A stretch of 24,063 nucleotides of DNA, from positions 1 through 24,063 of IMG/VR virus record IMGVR_UViG_3300046011_003269, one strand, 5' to 3'. The notes under the pieces were generated by a model. It made no database searches. It saw only the letters and a program-made list of their open reading frames with translations, and was not told the DNA's origin. Both the position numbers and the translations under genes were made by a program. Of this stretch, positions 14,109 to 23,159 are shown in pieces. Origin of the DNA: a virus. Position 1 is the first letter of the stretch; the number at the start of each line of letters is the position of its first letter.

Positions 14109-15997
14109 TCTGGCTTGATTTCGAAACGCGCAGCGAGTGCGATCTGAAGGTGGCGGGCGTATATAACTACGCTCGTCATCCCACAACAGAAGTGTTGTGT
14201 ATGTCCTACGCATGCAACGACGAGCCTGTGCAGACGTGGCGTCCAGGCGAGCCGTTCCCACGTTTGACCGGTCAGATCCGCGCGCATAACGCAGCGTTTG
14301 AGCGTCTGATCTTCTGGCATGTGTTAGACAAACAGATCCCGTTGGAGCAGTTCTACTGCACCGCGTCGCAAGCGAGAGCGAACTGTGCGCCAGGAAGCTT
14401 GGAAGACATGGCGCGCTTTGCCGGCTCAGACATGCGGAAAGATCATCGAGGCAATTATCTCGTTCGCAAGCTGTGCATCCCGCCATTCAGCGATGATGTG
14501 CGTTTAATGCAAGAGCTGGTAGAATATTGCGAACAAGACGTGCGTACTATGCGCGCGGCATCTAAGGCGATGCGGGAACTGACAGATGAAGAGCTGGCAG
14601 ATTATCATACTAATGAGCGCATCAATGATCGCGGCGTCTTGGTTGACGTACCTCTATGCCAAGCAGCGGTTCGATTCGCGGCTGATGAACTACAGGAAAT
14701 CGAGCGCATCGTACGTGAGGTTACGAACGGCGAGATCACGTCAGTCCGAAGCCCTAAGATGCGACAATGGGTTCAAGATCGTGTTGGCCCCGCAGCCCTC
14801 AAGCTCATGGAACGCGACGACAAATATAGTATCGATAAGACGGCGCGTGCAAATCTATTGGCGATGGACGATCCTGAAGAAGTGCCGCCGGATGTTGCCG
14901 ACGTTATACAGTGCGCTGATGATCTTTGGGCGTCTTCTGTAGCTAAATTTAAACGCCTATTTGATCTTGCAGGCGAAGATCACCGCGTACGAGGCGCGTT
15001 TGTATTTGCAGGCGGCAGCGCAACAGGTCGCGCGTCATCTTATGGCGCGCAGGTGCATAACTTTACGCGCGTCTGTGCAGAAGATCCCGACGCTGTACGC
15101 CATGCGATGGTGCGCGGTCATAAGATCGTCCCTAAGTTCGGCAAGCGCGTCACTGATGTGCTCAAGGGCATGTTACGTCCAGCGATGGTTCCGGCGCGGG
15201 GGCATCAATTCGTTGTCGCAGATTGGTCGTCTATAGAAGCCCGTGTTACTCCGTGGTTGTCCAACAACGGCGAAGAGAAGCTCGAATTATTTAGAGCTGG
15301 ACAAGATGTGTATAAGTTCAACGCGTCAAAAACTTTTGGTTGTGCCATAGAAGATGTGACAAAAGACCAACGCCAAGTTGGTAAAGTTCAAGAGTTAGCT
15401 TGTGGCTTCGCCGGAGGCGTCGGCGCGTTTGCTGCGATGGGTCGCGTGTATGGCATTAACATGCCGGAAGACGAAGCCAGACGCATGGTAACTGCGTGGC
15501 GTATTGCAAACAAATGGTCAGTGCCGTTCTGGAATGACATCGAGTTGGCGTACACAAGAGCGCTGAGTCGTCAAGGCGAAATATTTGAAGCCGGTAAAAT
15601 TAAATACTTGTTTCGTGGTCAGCATCTTTGGTATGCTTTACCTTCGGGGCGCGTTCTTTGCTATCCCTATGCGCGGTTCGAGGATGACGGCAGTATAACC
15701 TACGCCAAAGCATCTTGGAAACCAGCCGCAGACGCAAAGGAATGGCCTCGCGCGCGGCTATGGCGCGGGCTTGCATGTGAGAATGTAACCCAAGCAGTTG
15801 CGAATGATTTATTAAGGTACAGTTTAAAGCATTTAAATAATGTTGTGCTTCATGTGCACGACGAAATAGTTGTCGAATCAGATGAACCAGAAATAGCAAG
15901 GGAGGCTATGGTTCGTGTGATGACAACGCCGCCGGATTGGGCGGTTGGATTACCGCTTGCAGTAGAAGCTAATATTATGGGGCGATATGGAAAATAG
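14105..15997 (+). CDS. Family A DNA polymerase with 3'-5' exonuclease domain
   Basis: A 630-residue replicative polymerase of phage PolA type. Exonuclease motifs are Asp5/Glu7 (WLDFETRS), AHNAAFE (61-66) and Tyr141-xxx-Asp145 (YCEQD). Polymerase motif A is VADWSSIEAR with Asp373. The O-helix motif B is R423-xxx-K427-xxx-L431-xxx-F435 followed by AGG. Motif C is HDE at 585-587 (LHVHDEIVVE). No 5'-nuclease domain is present. Leu431 aligns with E. coli Pol I Phe762 and Phe435 with Tyr766, both notable substitutions. It is coupled to the upstream gene (ATGA) and overlaps the primase-helicase start by 11 nt, so the two enzymes are probably made together. Confidence 0.95.
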   Translation: MIWLDFETRSECDLKVAGVYNYARHPTTEVLCMSYACNDEPVQTWRPGEPFPRLTGQIRAHNAAFERLIFWHVLDKQIPLEQFYCTASQARANCAPGSLEDMARFAGSDMRKDHRGNYLVRKLCIPPFSDDVRLMQELVEYCEQDVRTMRAASKAMRELTDEELADYHTNERINDRGVLVDVPLCQAAVRFAADELQEIERIVREVTNGEITSVRSPKMRQWVQDRVGPAALKLMERDDKYSIDKTARANLLAMDDPEEVPPDVADVIQCADDLWASSVAKFKRLFDLAGEDHRVRGAFVFAGGSATGRASSYGAQVHNFTRVCAEDPDAVRHAMVRGHKIVPKFGKRVTDVLKGMLRPAMVPARGHQFVVADWSSIEARVTPWLSNNGEEKLELFRAGQDVYKFNASKTFGCAIEDVTKDQRQVGKVQELACGFAGGVGAFAAMGRVYGINMPEDEARRMVTAWRIANKWSVPFWNDIELAYTRALSRQGEIFEAGKIKYLFRGQHLWYALPSGRVLCYPYARFEDDGSITYAKASWKPAADAKEWPRARLWRGLACENVTQAVANDLLRYSLKHLNNVVLHVHDEIVVESDEPEIAREAMVRVMTTPPDWAVGLPLAVEANIMGRYGK

Positions 15998-18290
15998 AAT
16001 CCTTGACTATGTAGTCGGACTTGCGGAAGCAGGCGAGACGCCGCTCATAGTGCGGCAAGTGCCAATTGTGCGTAATAACGTACATCTACAGCATTTAGAT
16101 GGATCATATAAATATACTTGGCCCGCTTATCTTCCTACGCATAAGCGCAAGAAAGGCGAAGCTTGGTATATTAATACAGGTTCTTTTATTATCGAGCGCT
16201 TTAAAGACGGTAAGGTTAGCGCCGCGTCTGCCAATTGCGAATACGTGCTGTTTATGATGTTGGACGACATCGGCACGAAAAGCAAAACGCCGCCGCTTGA
16301 TCCTACGTGGATAGTGGAGACAAGCCCAGATAATTTTCAATGGGTTTATGCATTCAGAGAACAACCAACAACAGGAGAATATTGTGCAGCTATTACAGCG
16401 CTGGCCGCAGCCGGTTATACCGATCCAGGCGCAACTAATGCTGTGCGTAATTGCCGTCTGCCTGGTTCAGTTAATTTAAAACCTGGGCGTGATGCGTTTG
16501 AGTGCAAAGAGATCTCTTTTAACCCAAAGCTAGACTACACGCTACAGGAGATATGCGACGCATGTGGCGTTATACCGTTAGAGGCAAACACAGCTACCTA
16601 TCGATCCGTTAAAGTAGAAGATAACGGCGTTGATAATGTAATGACATGGCTCAACGAGCAAGGTCTTGTCTTATCGCGTCCTAATGCTGAAGGATGGATG
16701 GGCGTAGTCTGCCCTAACAATGCGGCGCATACAGACGGTCAGATCGAGGGTCGGTATAGACCGCTGGATCGTTCTTATTGCTGCATGCATGCCCACTGCG
16801 ATCACATCAACAGCGAAGCGTTTCTCAAATGGGTCGCTGATAATGGTGGGCCGCGTGAGCATCAAGGCATCAGAGGCGAGCTTATCACTGCCGAATTTAA
16901 AGCGATGCATGATGCTATAAAGCCCAACGAGTTCTTTCCTGACGTAGCATCTGAGCGCGTCGCGCAGGTGGAGCGCGAAGAGGCCGGACGCGTTGAGCGC
17001 GGTGACTGGTATGAGCGCTTTGCGTATATCGTGGATGATGACGCATACTTTGATCTTACGACGCGCAATGAGATCTCGCGCAGTTCTTTCAATGCTATCT
17101 TCCGGCATATCAGTTGCGTGTCAGTGCATAACGCCAAGCGCCGCATCGAGGCATCTGTGTGCTTTGACGAGAATCGCCAGGAGCACAAGGCAAAACTATT
17201 GAAAGGTCTAACCTATGCGGCAGGCGAGAAAATCTTGGTGCATAAAGATAATGAAATCTATGGTAATCGATGGCGAGACGCTCGACCGATTTTCACCAGA
17301 ACAAGCGGGGATATATCACGCTTTACTGCCCATTGTGAACGATTGGTACCTGATGAGGTTGAGCGAAACCATTGCTACGACGTTATGGCGTTTAAGCTCC
17401 AACACGCGGACGTTAAAATAAATCACGCTGTCTTGCATGGCGGCGATGAAGGCTCCGGCAAAGACACGATGTGGGCTCCGTTCATCTGGTCTGTCTGTGG
17501 CCCGAACAATCACAACAAGGGTATCATAGACAACGAGAGCCTTTCGTCGCAGTGGGGCTATCAGCTCGAGAGCGAGATCTTGATCCTCAACGAGCTGCGC
17601 GAACCAGAGGCCAAAGAGCGCCGCGCGTTAGCCAACAAGCTTAAGCCTATTATCGCTGCGCCGCCTGACATGCTGCCGATCAACCGCAAGGGTCTGCATC
17701 CATACAACATGCTCAACCGCGTTCTTGTGCTCGCCTTCACCAACGATCCGATTCCGATCTCTATCCCGTCGCAGGATCGTCGCTGGTTCTGCGTGTGGTC
17801 TACCGCGCCGCGCATGGCTCCAGACGAGGCCCGCGAGATGTGGGACTGGTATCATGCCGGTGGCTTCGAGGCGGTCGCCTCCTGGCTCTACGCGCGCGAT
17901 GTTAGCCGCTTCAACCCTGCCGCCGCGCCGCCTATCACTGACTTCAAGCTCTCGCTCGTTGAGCACGGCATGTCTATGGCTGAGAGCTTCATCGTTGAGA
18001 TGATCAGAGGCCGCAAGGGTGACTTCGCCCTGGGCGTTATCGCTGGGCCTTTCCATGAGATGTGCGGGCGCTTGAGCGTCCAAGCCGGCAATGGTGTTAA
18101 GGTGCCGCAAGCCGCGCTCCTGCATGCGCTCAAGGAGGCCGGCTGGGTAGACTGTGGTCGCCTGCATTCAGGTAAGTATCAGACCAAGCGCCACGTCTTT
18201 TGCGCGCCGAACATGTTTCAGCATAGCAAGTCAGATTTGCGTAATATGTGCGAACCAGCCCCAACCCCGAACCTACAGGTGGTCAAATGA
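15987..18290 (+). CDS. Primase-helicase: AEP-like primase, Zn motif, SF3-like helicase
   Basis: A 767-residue protein. Residues about 60-170 look like an archaeo-eukaryotic/RepB-type primase: a hydrophobic strand ending in Asp93-Asp94 (FMMLDDIG), SPDNFQWVYAF at 113-123 and NCRLPGSVNLKPG at 155-167. A Cys/His cluster (C242, H248, C265-C266, H268, H270, C271, H273) suggests a zinc site. The C-terminal half has Walker A GGDEGSGKDT (485-494), a Walker B-like ILILNEL (531-537), a sensor asparagine (FTNDP) and an arginine pair (DRRWF), as in DUF5906/P4-type helicases. It should unwind DNA and lay primers for the polymerase encoded just upstream. The helicase half looks GC-richer than the primase half. 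Confidence 0.85.
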   Translation: MENRILDYVVGLAEAGETPLIVRQVPIVRNNVHLQHLDGSYKYTWPAYLPTHKRKKGEAWYINTGSFIIERFKDGKVSAASANCEYVLFMMLDDIGTKSKTPPLDPTWIVETSPDNFQWVYAFREQPTTGEYCAAITALAAAGYTDPGATNAVRNCRLPGSVNLKPGRDAFECKEISFNPKLDYTLQEICDACGVIPLEANTATYRSVKVEDNGVDNVMTWLNEQGLVLSRPNAEGWMGVVCPNNAAHTDGQIEGRYRPLDRSYCCMHAHCDHINSEAFLKWVADNGGPREHQGIRGELITAEFKAMHDAIKPNEFFPDVASERVAQVEREEAGRVERGDWYERFAYIVDDDAYFDLTTRNEISRSSFNAIFRHISCVSVHNAKRRIEASVCFDENRQEHKAKLLKGLTYAAGEKILVHKDNEIYGNRWRDARPIFTRTSGDISRFTAHCERLVPDEVERNHCYDVMAFKLQHADVKINHAVLHGGDEGSGKDTMWAPFIWSVCGPNNHNKGIIDNESLSSQWGYQLESEILILNELREPEAKERRALANKLKPIIAAPPDMLPINRKGLHPYNMLNRVLVLAFTNDPIPISIPSQDRRWFCVWSTAPRMAPDEAREMWDWYHAGGFEAVASWLYARDVSRFNPAAAPPITDFKLSLVEHGMSMAESFIVEMIRGRKGDFALGVIAGPFHEMCGRLSVQAGNGVKVPQAALLHALKEAGWVDCGRLHSGKYQTKRHVFCAPNMFQHSKSDLRNMCEPAPTPNLQVVK

Positions 18291-19325: not shown

Positions 19326-19583
19326 TCAATGATTGTTGTTACTAGGATCACAAAAGCTGATTCTTCGTTCTTCATATCTAATCCCGCTTATTATGGTTGT
19401 ATGATCGCGTTTAAAAACACGCGCTATTTGTGTGTAGGTCTTGTCGGTTTCTTTATGCGCGCGATACATGGCCTTGCGACGTATGGCGCTGATCCGCACT
19501 GTGTGGTTATAAGAGATTAGTGTTTCATAGCTCACCCCTGCCGCTTTCGCTTCCTCCAATATTATCTGCTTTATTGTCTTCAT
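19326..19583 (-). CDS. Stand-alone DnaA domain IV-like HTH protein
   Basis: An 85-residue protein equivalent to the DNA-binding C-terminus of DnaA without the ATPase. The basic helix ISAIRRKAMYRAHKET (31-46) corresponds to the R-x-AMYLARE segment of DnaA. TYTQIARVFKRDHTTIISGI (49-68) carries the signature DHTT (Asp60-His61-Thr62-Thr63), which contacts the DnaA box in cellular DnaA. It overlaps the preceding gene by 59 nt. Small DnaA_C-like proteins are known in phages and could occupy host DnaA boxes, help at the phage origin or act as regulators. The adjacent operon also codes for a clamp-like protein. The fold assignment is strong; the role is inferred. Confidence 0.85.
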   Translation of the reverse strand: MKTIKQIILEEAKAAGVSYETLISYNHTVRISAIRRKAMYRAHKETDKTYTQIARVFKRDHTTIISGIRYEERRISFCDPSNNNH

Positions 19584-21168: not shown

Positions 21169-21711
21169 CTAAAGCGCCCAGGATGGCGGTAAATCATTCA
21201 TACCTGTGAATTTGAGGCGCGTTGGCATTAACAAACCAAAGCCATCAACATCAGGGCCAAATGATATTAACGCTGCTGAGTAGCCATTATGATTAACGCA
21301 AGTCGGCGTTCCTTTGCCTAGCGCTTTTGCAACTTTGGCAAAGTCTCCAAGATATGTGAGATTGAATTGTGCCGTCTCATTATTTAATTCTTTTGGCACA
21401 ATGCGCCGCCAATCGGGAAATGTGCCTTCAATAGGCGTGAAGATTATATTGCCTAATATATTGCCATTTAGCTCAACGGTTTCTTCTTTAGTCTTTAGCG
21501 CGTTGACGGTTTCAATAGGAATTATAATGTCTACTGGCGCACCGTCGTACGTCTCAGCTTGCCTAAATGCCGTCAGACGATGGCCGTCAGTGGCGACAAT
21601 AAACACACCCTTACCACTGGCTTGAATAGCTACGCCTTTTAGATAATAGCGCGTCTCTTCCTTACTTGTGACAAGTGCAGCAGCTTTAAGATAGTTCACG
21701 TTAATTTTCAT
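21169..21711 (-). CDS. Miniature DNA polymerase III beta-like sliding clamp
   Basis: A 180-residue protein with clear beta-clamp motifs: RYYLKGVAIQ, VFIVATDGHRLTAFR (about 37-50), IIPIETVNAL and EGTFPDWRRIVP (about 94-105). Near the C-terminus it has GLLMPTR, resembling the MPMRL end of bacterial DnaN. It is half the length of DnaN (about 366), so it holds at most two of the three clamp domains and would have to form a higher oligomer to encircle DNA. Alternatively it may bind clamp partners without forming a ring. A GAAGGGAAAG ribosome site and a dedicated promoter lie directly upstream. A clamp in a phage with its own PolA is notable. Confidence 0.85.
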   Translation of the reverse strand: MKINVNYLKAAALVTSKEETRYYLKGVAIQASGKGVFIVATDGHRLTAFRQAETYDGAPVDIIIPIETVNALKTKEETVELNGNILGNIIFTPIEGTFPDWRRIVPKELNNETAQFNLTYLGDFAKVAKALGKGTPTCVNHNGYSAALISFGPDVDGFGLLMPTRLKFTGMNDLPPSWAL

Positions 21712-21747: not shown

Positions 21748-21775
21748 ACACTAACACAGTTTTTTTGTTAGTCAA
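21748..21775 (-). promoter_or_regulatory. Putative promoter for the clamp gene (leftward)
   Basis: Reading leftward: TTGACT (21775-21770), a 16-bp spacer with AACAAAAAAA, then an extended TGT-TAGTGT -10 (21753-21748). It is 37 bp from the clamp ATG. The 23 bases at 21755-21777 are repeated exactly at 22085-22107. Its -35 overlaps the end of the 47-aa gene upstream. Confidence 0.65.
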
Positions 21776-21777
21776 TA
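21755..21777. repeat. 23-bp direct repeat, copy 1
   Basis: Identical to 22085-22107, 330 bp apart. It covers the -35 hexamer and A-tract spacer of a leftward promoter. The run of seven T/A and the flanking CACAG and TTAGTCAATA are preserved in both copies. Confidence 0.9.
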
Positions 21778-21911
21778 GGCTCTATTACCAGTGTGCTTCC
21801 GCGATGCAGGTTCACATAACGCAGGCCTATTTCGATGGCTTCCTCGCGCGTGGCGCATATGCCGCTCTCGACTAGCGCGTGATATCTATTTAATACTTGG
21901 AATGTATACAT
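21768..21911 (-). CDS. Small hypothetical protein (47 aa)
   Basis: MYTFQVLNRYHALVESGICA, then TREEAIEIGLRYVNLHRGST and VIEPID. The small alpha/beta pattern has a conserved-looking TREEA-E-G-R motif. A CAGGAA element lies 8 nt before the ATG. The start codon falls inside a TGTATACA palindrome (21903-21910), and its TAA is part of the clamp promoter. No family is recognised. Confidence 0.6.
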   Translation of the reverse strand: MYTFQVLNRYHALVESGICATREEAIEIGLRYVNLHRGSTLVIEPID

Positions 21912-21950: not shown

Positions 21951-22043
21951 TTATTTTAGTATTGGCTCGAATGCGACGGCTAAGATTAGAAGGCCAACAA
22001 AAGCGCTCGAGACAGTGAAGAGAAGGTCTAAAAGCTTGGTCAT
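21951..22043 (-). CDS. 30-residue single-TM peptide, first gene of leftward operon
   Basis: MTKLLDLLFTV leads into a hydrophobic stretch (SSAFVGLLILAVAF) and ends EPILK. The ATG lies about 35 bp after the leftward promoter. An AAAGGAC element is some 13 nt upstream, which is long. A nearer ATG ten bases before (other frame) has the same problem. The start codon sits inside the first pair of TTGGTC repeats. Role unknown. Confidence 0.5.
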   Translation of the reverse strand: MTKLLDLLFTVSSAFVGLLILAVAFEPILK

Positions 22044-22077
22044 TTTTGGTCATGTCCTTTCGTGATTCGATGATTAG

Positions 22078-22105
22078 ACTTTAGCACAGTTTTTTTGTTA
22101 GTCAA
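22078..22105 (-). promoter_or_regulatory. Putative promoter at the head of the leftward operon
   Basis: Reading leftward: TTGACT (22105-22100), 16-bp A-tract spacer, extended -10 TGC-TAAAGT (22083-22078). The -35 and spacer are identical to the clamp promoter. It would transcribe the 30-aa and 47-aa genes and then the rest of the operon. Confidence 0.65.
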
Positions 22106-22107
22106 TA
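22085..22107. repeat. 23-bp direct repeat, copy 2
   Basis: Identical to 21755-21777. It lies between the first gene of the leftward operon and the repeat-rich region, and contains the -35 and spacer of the outer leftward promoter. Confidence 0.9.
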
Positions 22108-22253
22108 ACTTTTTTGGCAAAAGCAAATTATTTTTGTTTGTTGGTCTTGTTTGGTCACGTTTTGGTTATTGTTTTGGGGTTGGATGACCCAAACGTAAAC
22201 GACTAATATTGCGGGCTAAAGTGGCTTGTTTGGTCTTATTGGTCTTTTTTATA

Positions 22254-22265
22254 TTAACTAGTTAA
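22254..22265. promoter_or_regulatory. 12-bp perfect palindrome (TTAACTAGTTAA)
   Basis: The palindrome lies at the AT-rich centre of the control region, between the two TTGGTC arrays and next to a run of ten A. It may be an operator or part of a melting element. Confidence 0.6.
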
Positions 22266-22274
22266 AAAAAAAAT

Positions 22275-22308
22275 ATTGTATACATATATATGTAGGTGTG
22301 TATACAAT
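22275..22308. promoter_or_regulatory. Paired TGTATACA palindromes forming an inverted repeat
   Basis: ATTGTATACA (22275-22284) and TGTATACAAT (22299-22308) are 10-bp inverted arms 14 bp apart. Each contains the 8-bp palindrome TGTATACA, with centres 22 bp (two helical turns) apart. Another exact copy is at 21903-21910 and a 7/8 match (TGTATACT) at 22463-22470. This pattern suits operators of a dimeric repressor. Confidence 0.7.
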
Positions 22309-22337
22309 CCTCCATATTTGGCGCGATTTTTTTCCGA

Positions 22338-22454
22338 TGACCAAAAGACCAAGATGACCATAAGCCCCCTCTCTGCTACGTCATTCTCTCCCCATGTCTA
22401 CATTCAATATGCTAGCGTGAATGCAACCCCGCAACACATGACCAAAATGACCAA
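22338..22454 (-). repeat. Right half of TTGGTC repeat array (inverted orientation)
   Basis: The complementary form WGACCAA occurs at 22338 and 22346, with a degenerate TGACCAT at 22355, and again at 22439 and 22448. Spacing is 8-9 bp. The orientation is opposite to the left half, so the two halves face each other across the AT-rich centre. Confidence 0.85.
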
Positions 22455-22634: not shown

Positions 22635-23159
22635 ATGTTTGAAAGCTTGCCATACGAGCCTCGTAAAATAGAGGCTACAGAAAAGAATCTCGAACTGATC
22701 TACGAGGCCGCGCGTAAAGGACTCAAAGGTGACGCGCTCGCGTTAGCTGCCGGCATGCTGCCGGTTGAGTATCGCCGGCTGGTGCAGTTCGATCCTATTG
22801 CTGAGTATGCGGAGATTAAAGGCCGCGCAGATGGCGAGATGGAGATGGCTGGCGTCTTACGCACAGCCGCGTTAAACGGCGACACTAAAGCGGCGCTCGA
22901 CATACTAAAACATGTGCATAAGTGGACTGCACCACAGTCGATGCAGATCCAAGTCGAGCAACGCATATCTATCTTAGCGGCGCTTGAAGAAGCGCAGACC
23001 AGAGTTATCGAAGGGCAGGTATTGGATGCAAGTGCCGATTTACTCAGCGGAAGAAGAACAGAAGCTGATGGCGACGCTCTGGAGTCCAACGCTGAAGAAC
23101 GACCCGCTGGCGTTCGTGCGTCTGGCCTTCCCGTGGAAGAAACCTGGGACACCGCTTGA
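22635..23159 (+). CDS. Terminase small subunit
   Basis: A 174-residue protein that would recognise phage DNA and hand it to the large subunit. Residues 10-50 look like a helix-turn-helix (KNLELIYEAARKGLKGDALA, then LAAGMLPVEYRRLV). The central block (EMEMAGVLRTAALNGDTKAA, then LDILKHVHKW at about 85-95) is the pattern of small terminases from podoviruses and siphoviruses with the same large subunit. The ribosome site is poor (ACAAAAGATTCT before the ATG), so initiation may be weak or leaderless-like. The final 44 codons overlap the large-subunit gene out of frame, an unusually long overlap for this phage. Confidence 0.8.
   Translation: MFESLPYEPRKIEATEKNLELIYEAARKGLKGDALALAAGMLPVEYRRLVQFDPIAEYAEIKGRADGEMEMAGVLRTAALNGDTKAALDILKHVHKWTAPQSMQIQVEQRISILAALEEAQTRVIEGQVLDASADLLSGRRTEADGDALESNAEERPAGVRASGLPVEETWDTA

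Follow-up and report, generated by a model that had tools for sequence, protein, structure and literature searches.

We found that an array of short repeats at positions 22036..22454 of a 24,063-nucleotide stretch of viral DNA (the window) is very probably an iteron-type replication origin, which, as judged from its sequence, would be read by the phage's own primase-helicase through the wing of a C-terminal winged-helix domain. The first-pass annotation had described the region as a candidate origin resembling iteron-type initiator sites, and this interpretation gains support from co-variation, which ties the repeat motif to the primase-helicase. The array contains five opposed TTGGTC pairs. 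Copies start at 22036, 22046, 22141, 22151, 22230 and 22239 on the plus strand and at 22339, 22347, 22440 and 22449 on the minus strand. This confirms the ten copies in about 420 bp initially noted, the start-to-start distance of 8-10 bp between the copies of each pair, and their orientation, with all six left copies reading rightward and all four right copies reading leftward. Pair 1 (22036..22051; GCTTGGTCATT and TTTTGGTCATG), pair 2 (22141..22168; TGTTGGTCTTG and GTTTGGTCACG) and pair 3 (22230..22244; GTTTGGTCTTA and TATTGGTCTTT) are located on the plus strand; pair 4 (22339..22361) and pair 5 (22440..22454; TTTTGGTCATG and CCTTGGTCATT) are located on the minus strand. The stretch given for pair 2 includes a degenerate third site at 22160 (+), TTTTGGTTATT, which is written TTGGTTAT in the profile result, and that for pair 4 includes an additional ATGGTC at 22356 (-), in phase with the pair.

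We compared these counts with chance expectation. Of the 19 TTGGTC copies in the whole window (8.1 expected from dinucleotide shuffles), 10 fall inside the array, where about 0.14 would be expected in 419 bp at the window-wide rate (Poisson P(>=10) = 8e-16). A profile derived from relatives finds 12 sites in the array, compared with 16 weaker ones across the remaining 23.5 kb. Iteron origins are marked by clustered short repeats in non-coding DNA, far above chance, and by an adjacent AT-rich unwinding region, and both are present here. The 90 bp of highest A+T content in the window (78%) start at 22229-22230, at the center of the array. This AT-rich center (22229..22336) is a candidate unwinding region and contains the A10 run (22264-22273) that had been pointed out before. 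The earlier statement that no gene explains the array holds in that the region is without a convincing gene, but the start of a possible leftward ORF (30 aa) coincides in part with pair 1. The first pass had also known of no described system with this motif, and the literature we searched indeed contained no description of TTGGTC repeats. GC skew was uninformative, as it follows gene strand and leaves the array unmarked.

The array is positioned between a leftward early operon, which contains beta-clamp-like and DnaA domain IV-only genes, and the rightward terS and terL genes. The first rightward gene past the array (22635..23159, +) is named terS (small terminase) by its position before terL. 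The beta-clamp-like protein of the leftward operon (21169..21711, -; Pfam DNA_pol3_beta_2, 7e-10) is short, with 179 aa and a single recognizable clamp domain, and PHROGs link it also to RusA-like resolvases. Two possible small genes are found on the same strand, one encoding a hydrophobic 30-aa peptide with a start codon overlapping iteron pair 1 (21951-22043, -), the other a 47-aa protein (21768-21911, -); a search for convincing families retrieved none for either product. A sigma-70-like promoter for the leftward operon, TTGACT-16-TAAAGT, is located between pairs 1 and 2 (22078..22105, -), and a 26-bp direct repeat (21752-21777 and 22078-22108) contains this promoter. A second, palindromic motif, TGTNNACA, occurs at 21903, 22277, 22299, 22395, 22478 and 22486. 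These are six of its eight copies in the window, all inside a 600-bp stretch around the array, and relatives carry copies at similar distances from terS.

We next turn to the relatives, which were gathered by using the clamp, TerS, primase and DnaA_C proteins as queries. This yielded about 245 loci, partly several per contig, and the scans of relatives used the best 80 of 203 and the best 80 of 395 matches. The relatives represent one group of freshwater podovirus-like phages, plus more distant DnaA_C carriers. The closest ones retain a TTGGTC/ATGGTC array in the same position, and in two relatives of ~38.5 kb the densest such cluster of the record is found at the same place as the array in the window. 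Syntenic relatives devoid of the motif had been named in the first-pass annotation as an argument against its reading. On its face the argument applies, as TTGGTC clusters are lacking from syntenic phages that are more distantly related, but another repeat family occupies the same place. In the 750-800 bp before terS, where repeat words were sought, these phages nearly always carry a different over-represented ~7-10-mer, among others TTAGTCAT, ATCGTCAT, TTGGGTCAT, TTGTCCACAT, TTTAGGCTAT, TATCGCCAT, TTTAGGGCAAT, TTAGGGTAAT and TTTGGGCAAT. The architecture of the array is thus conserved while the repeat word changes. Several motif classes show half-arrays that converge on an AT-rich gap of 65-96 bp, and the most frequent site spacing is 9 bp; in the TTGTCCACA class this convergent arrangement was not found. 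In a few loci (L240, L232, L229, L248, L114), the dispersed array is replaced by head-to-tail satellites upstream of terS, for example TGCGGTTTATGCGGTT or CTGCCC repeats.

We analyzed which protein changes together with the repeat word; the later of these tests were run on single loci that hold both primase and terS. When sequence distance along the primase-helicase (767 aa; 15987..18290, +) is compared with motif distance, the correlation peaks in the last 130 residues. In a scan of 12-residue windows across the whole 767-aa protein (188 windows, 53 loci), the two windows covering the wing rank highest, with r values of 0.71 and 0.68 compared with a mean of 0.35 (sd 0.10). When the C-terminal domain is scanned more finely (62 loci), r reaches a sharp maximum of 0.70 at GRLHSGKYQTKR in the wing. 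The partial correlation between wing and motif, given the rest of the C-terminal domain, is 0.48 (0/2000 permutations), and the reverse is 0.11. The main statistic omits six loci dominated by tandem satellites. With all loci kept, including satellites and weak motifs, the maximum is still located at the wing (r 0.53 and 0.51), while the partial correlations drop to 0.27 and 0.25. We thus propose the wing segment CGRLHSGKYQTKR (aa 723-735; 18153..18191, +) as the specificity determinant. A cognate initiator on the same replicon, with a specificity matching the repeat, is a further mark of iteron origins, and the co-variation suggests that the primase-helicase is such an initiator.

Shared ancestry contributes to all of these correlations. 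In 30 branch-disjoint pairs, chosen on a tree from which the wing was excluded, motif similarity correlates with wing difference at a Spearman coefficient of -0.67 (p 4.5e-5) and with tree distance at -0.63. Natural swaps therefore carry most weight. Up to the wing (715 aa), the primases of L112 and L124 are 98.0% identical, whereas their wings (CGRLKSRDYDTKK and LGRVASSDYPSKK, respectively) share 54% identity. Their arrays differ accordingly in their words, with six TGTCCAC copies in L112 versus none in L124, and no TGGGTCA in L112 versus nine copies in L124. In a second pair, L202 and L201, the dnaAC and terS regions are ~88% identical at the DNA level, the wings are GRCMSSTHMNKK and GSVGTKEHQTKK, respectively, and the arrays contain TAGTCAT 13 times versus 0 and TAGGGTA 0 times versus 7. 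A contig fetched later from a bacterial genome collection, assigned to an actinobacterial MAG (L254), combines a previously unseen wing, CGRLASRDHTTRK, with a previously unseen array word, TTGCTTACAT, in the same place. Some loci have identical wings yet different top repeats (L108/L111, L055 versus L232/L242, L114 versus L137), an effect due in part to tandem satellites, which took over the automatic motif calling in a few loci.

As the repeat word changes together with one short protein segment, the sequences themselves reveal a recognition rule. In arrays of the NGTCAT type, the wing residue that precedes the S of the wing (and follows GRL, GLC or GRC) predicts the base N: His corresponds to G, Met or Leu to A, and Cys, Ser or Tyr to C. 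The correspondence of Met to A is found in two primase backbones that are only 54% identical. Perfect consistency between residue and base has a probability of 0.0025 by shuffling, a procedure that treats distinct wings as independent.

The swap pairs also bear on other candidate readers. The DnaA domain IV-only protein (19326..19583, -; Pfam Bac_DnaA_C, 3e-12) is encoded 2.5 kb from the array and is conserved in the clade of the window. We first favored it, given that several motifs look like drifted DnaA boxes, TTGTCCACA of some relatives among them, and that the presence of TTGGTC tracked DnaA_C identity. This candidate and the HTH protein, which the first-pass annotation had put forward together for binding assays, gain no support from our analysis. 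For DnaA_C, the partial correlation with the motif, given the wing, is 0.08, compared with 0.58 the other way around. Near-identical DnaA_C proteins occur with different motifs (L201/L202; L200/L201 is also cited), the same motif occurs with different DnaA_C proteins (L205/L221), and many arrays belong to phages in which no DnaA_C is detectable. Bacterial oriC regions resemble the array in that clustered short DnaA boxes are located beside an AT-rich region, but there is no exact TTATNCACA box in our array, and the number of such boxes in the window is at chance level. With both the boxes and the co-variation of a DnaA-type reader negative, the array does not group with DnaA-box origins, and we regard a drifted DnaA box read by the domain IV protein as highly improbable. 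The protein itself is a stand-alone DnaA domain IV of 84 aa, which keeps the RDHTT signature and is common in part of the phage group; the literature searched held no description of such stand-alone phage proteins. Four whole records (L101, L036, L043, L086) encode two DnaA_C-domain proteins each, a short one and one of ~190-230 aa.

Every relative we examined has its array immediately before terS, as the search was designed to find, and the array could in principle represent a packaging (pac/cos) site bound by TerS. As a reader, TerS is only weakly associated with the motif once the wing is accounted for (partial correlation 0.13 versus 0.64), and its similarity does not predict the motif. 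In addition, the packaging-gene DNA on the terS side is ~90% identical between L112 and L124, and the motif is not common to both. A packaging site is thus hardly credible.

An alternative of a different kind is that the array is an operator, at which the primase-helicase or another protein mainly represses divergent promoters while replication starts elsewhere. Its location between divergent operons would fit such a role, as would the presence of the leftward promoter (22105-22078) and of a possible gene start (22043) within it. We consider this unlikely: the protein that co-varies combines primase and helicase domains and is no dedicated regulator, its own gene is located 4 kb away, and 11-12 sites around the most AT-rich stretch exceed what an operator needs. 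A dedicated regulator is further disfavored because few gene families span all motif classes, and those identified are the terminase genes, the primase-helicase and the polymerase. As pair 1, the leftward promoter and the possible gene start are all inside the array, a protein bound to the origin may, however, also repress or regulate the leftward operon.

We analyzed the architecture of the proposed initiator. The protein combines a RepB_primase domain, a DUF5906/NrS-1-like SF3 helicase domain and a C-terminal domain (aa 657-757; 17955..18257, +), which is predicted with high confidence to be a winged helix (AlphaFold2 pLDDT 90.5, pTM 0.80). In this model, the co-varying segment forms the beta-hairpin wing that follows a well conserved third helix. 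We found no Pfam or PHROG family covering the C-terminal domain alone. In a viral fold library, this domain best matches the C terminus of a helicase protein resembling NrS-1 polymerase; other phage primase-polymerases rank next. A fold search against solved structures returned generic winged helices with Z scores of at most 6.8 (TFIIIC T138, Pex, RTP), and the P4 domain is absent among the matches listed. In the P4 alpha protein, a winged-helix domain binds origin repeats, and unwinding and priming follow (PMC4234260). Like P4 alpha, the window protein is modeled to contain a primase, an SF3-type helicase and a C-terminal winged helix in one chain. The primase of P4 alpha is of the Toprim type (PMC4234260), whereas the window protein matches the AEP-type RepB_primase and has an NrS-1-like helicase; a sequence match to the P4 origin-binding domain was not found. 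By analogy, the window protein may be said to work like P4 alpha, but it is not a member of that family, because its primase is of another type.

The closest solved relative of the helicase part is NrS-1, with matches to structures 6k9c/6k9e (E 8e-4). NrS-1 polymerase starts at a short specific sequence, TTTGGTTA, which has been proposed as its origin, and the basis of this sequence recognition has been described as unclear (PMC8718748, PMC7102993). The two systems thus share the helicase match and a start at a short specific sequence. They differ in that NrS-1 uses two copies of an 8-mer rather than an array, recognized through its N-terminal region, and in that its C-terminal Tail is reported to adopt a novel fold, in contrast to the winged helix predicted here. 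By comparison with NrS-1, which starts at TTTGGTTA (PMC8718748), a sequence similar to TTTGGTCA, the TTGGTC sites might be template recognition sites of the N-terminal primase, and one exact TTTGGTTA is indeed found inside the array. TTTGGTTA is no more frequent in the window than expected by chance, however, and co-variation is located at the C-terminal wing rather than in the N-terminal half, with L112 and L124 98% identical in everything before the wing. Template recognition by the primase domain is thus a very unlikely explanation for the array.

In the staphylococcal SaPI origin, iterons flank an AT-rich region. SaPIs differ from our phage in element, host and protein family and are likened here by description; their Rep, encoded by a satellite, is a replication protein that has primase/helicase activity (PMC7145576). 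In geminiviruses, related viruses carry different iterons, to which the cognate Rep corresponds (PMC12548392). The iteron-related domain of Rep would work alike as one half of a co-evolving initiator-iteron pair. Geminiviruses are unrelated plant ssDNA rolling-circle viruses and their Rep has another protein fold; we claim no membership.

Together, these findings suggest how an iteron origin read by the primase-helicase could function. The C-terminal winged helix of the protein would bind every TTGGTC-type site, and its wing hairpin (aa 723-735) would read the bases. On either side of the AT-rich center, pairs of sites spaced ~9 bp apart would load several copies that face this center. There, the SF3 helicase part would assemble and melt the DNA, and the primase part would begin synthesis at the melted center, from which replication would start. 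Iteron origins are known as a kind; what is new is a wing-to-iteron code that spans the family and the speed at which it diversifies. We tentatively speculate that, across the phage group, an origin code of nearly one residue to one base resides in the wing rather than in the recognition helix, and that origins diversify fast by joint changes in wing and iteron. This could keep replication private to each lineage, for example against origin or initiator piracy by co-infecting relatives or satellites, a scenario that is possible but for now rather doubtful. In dozens of uncultured phages, both the DNA-reading segment of the initiator and its cognate iteron can be read, and the natural swap pairs provide ready-made controls. 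If our reading is true, one could predict the origins of many metagenomic phages and test a DNA recognition code of winged-helix wings, and the rapid, lineage-specific change of phage origins would need an evolutionary explanation.
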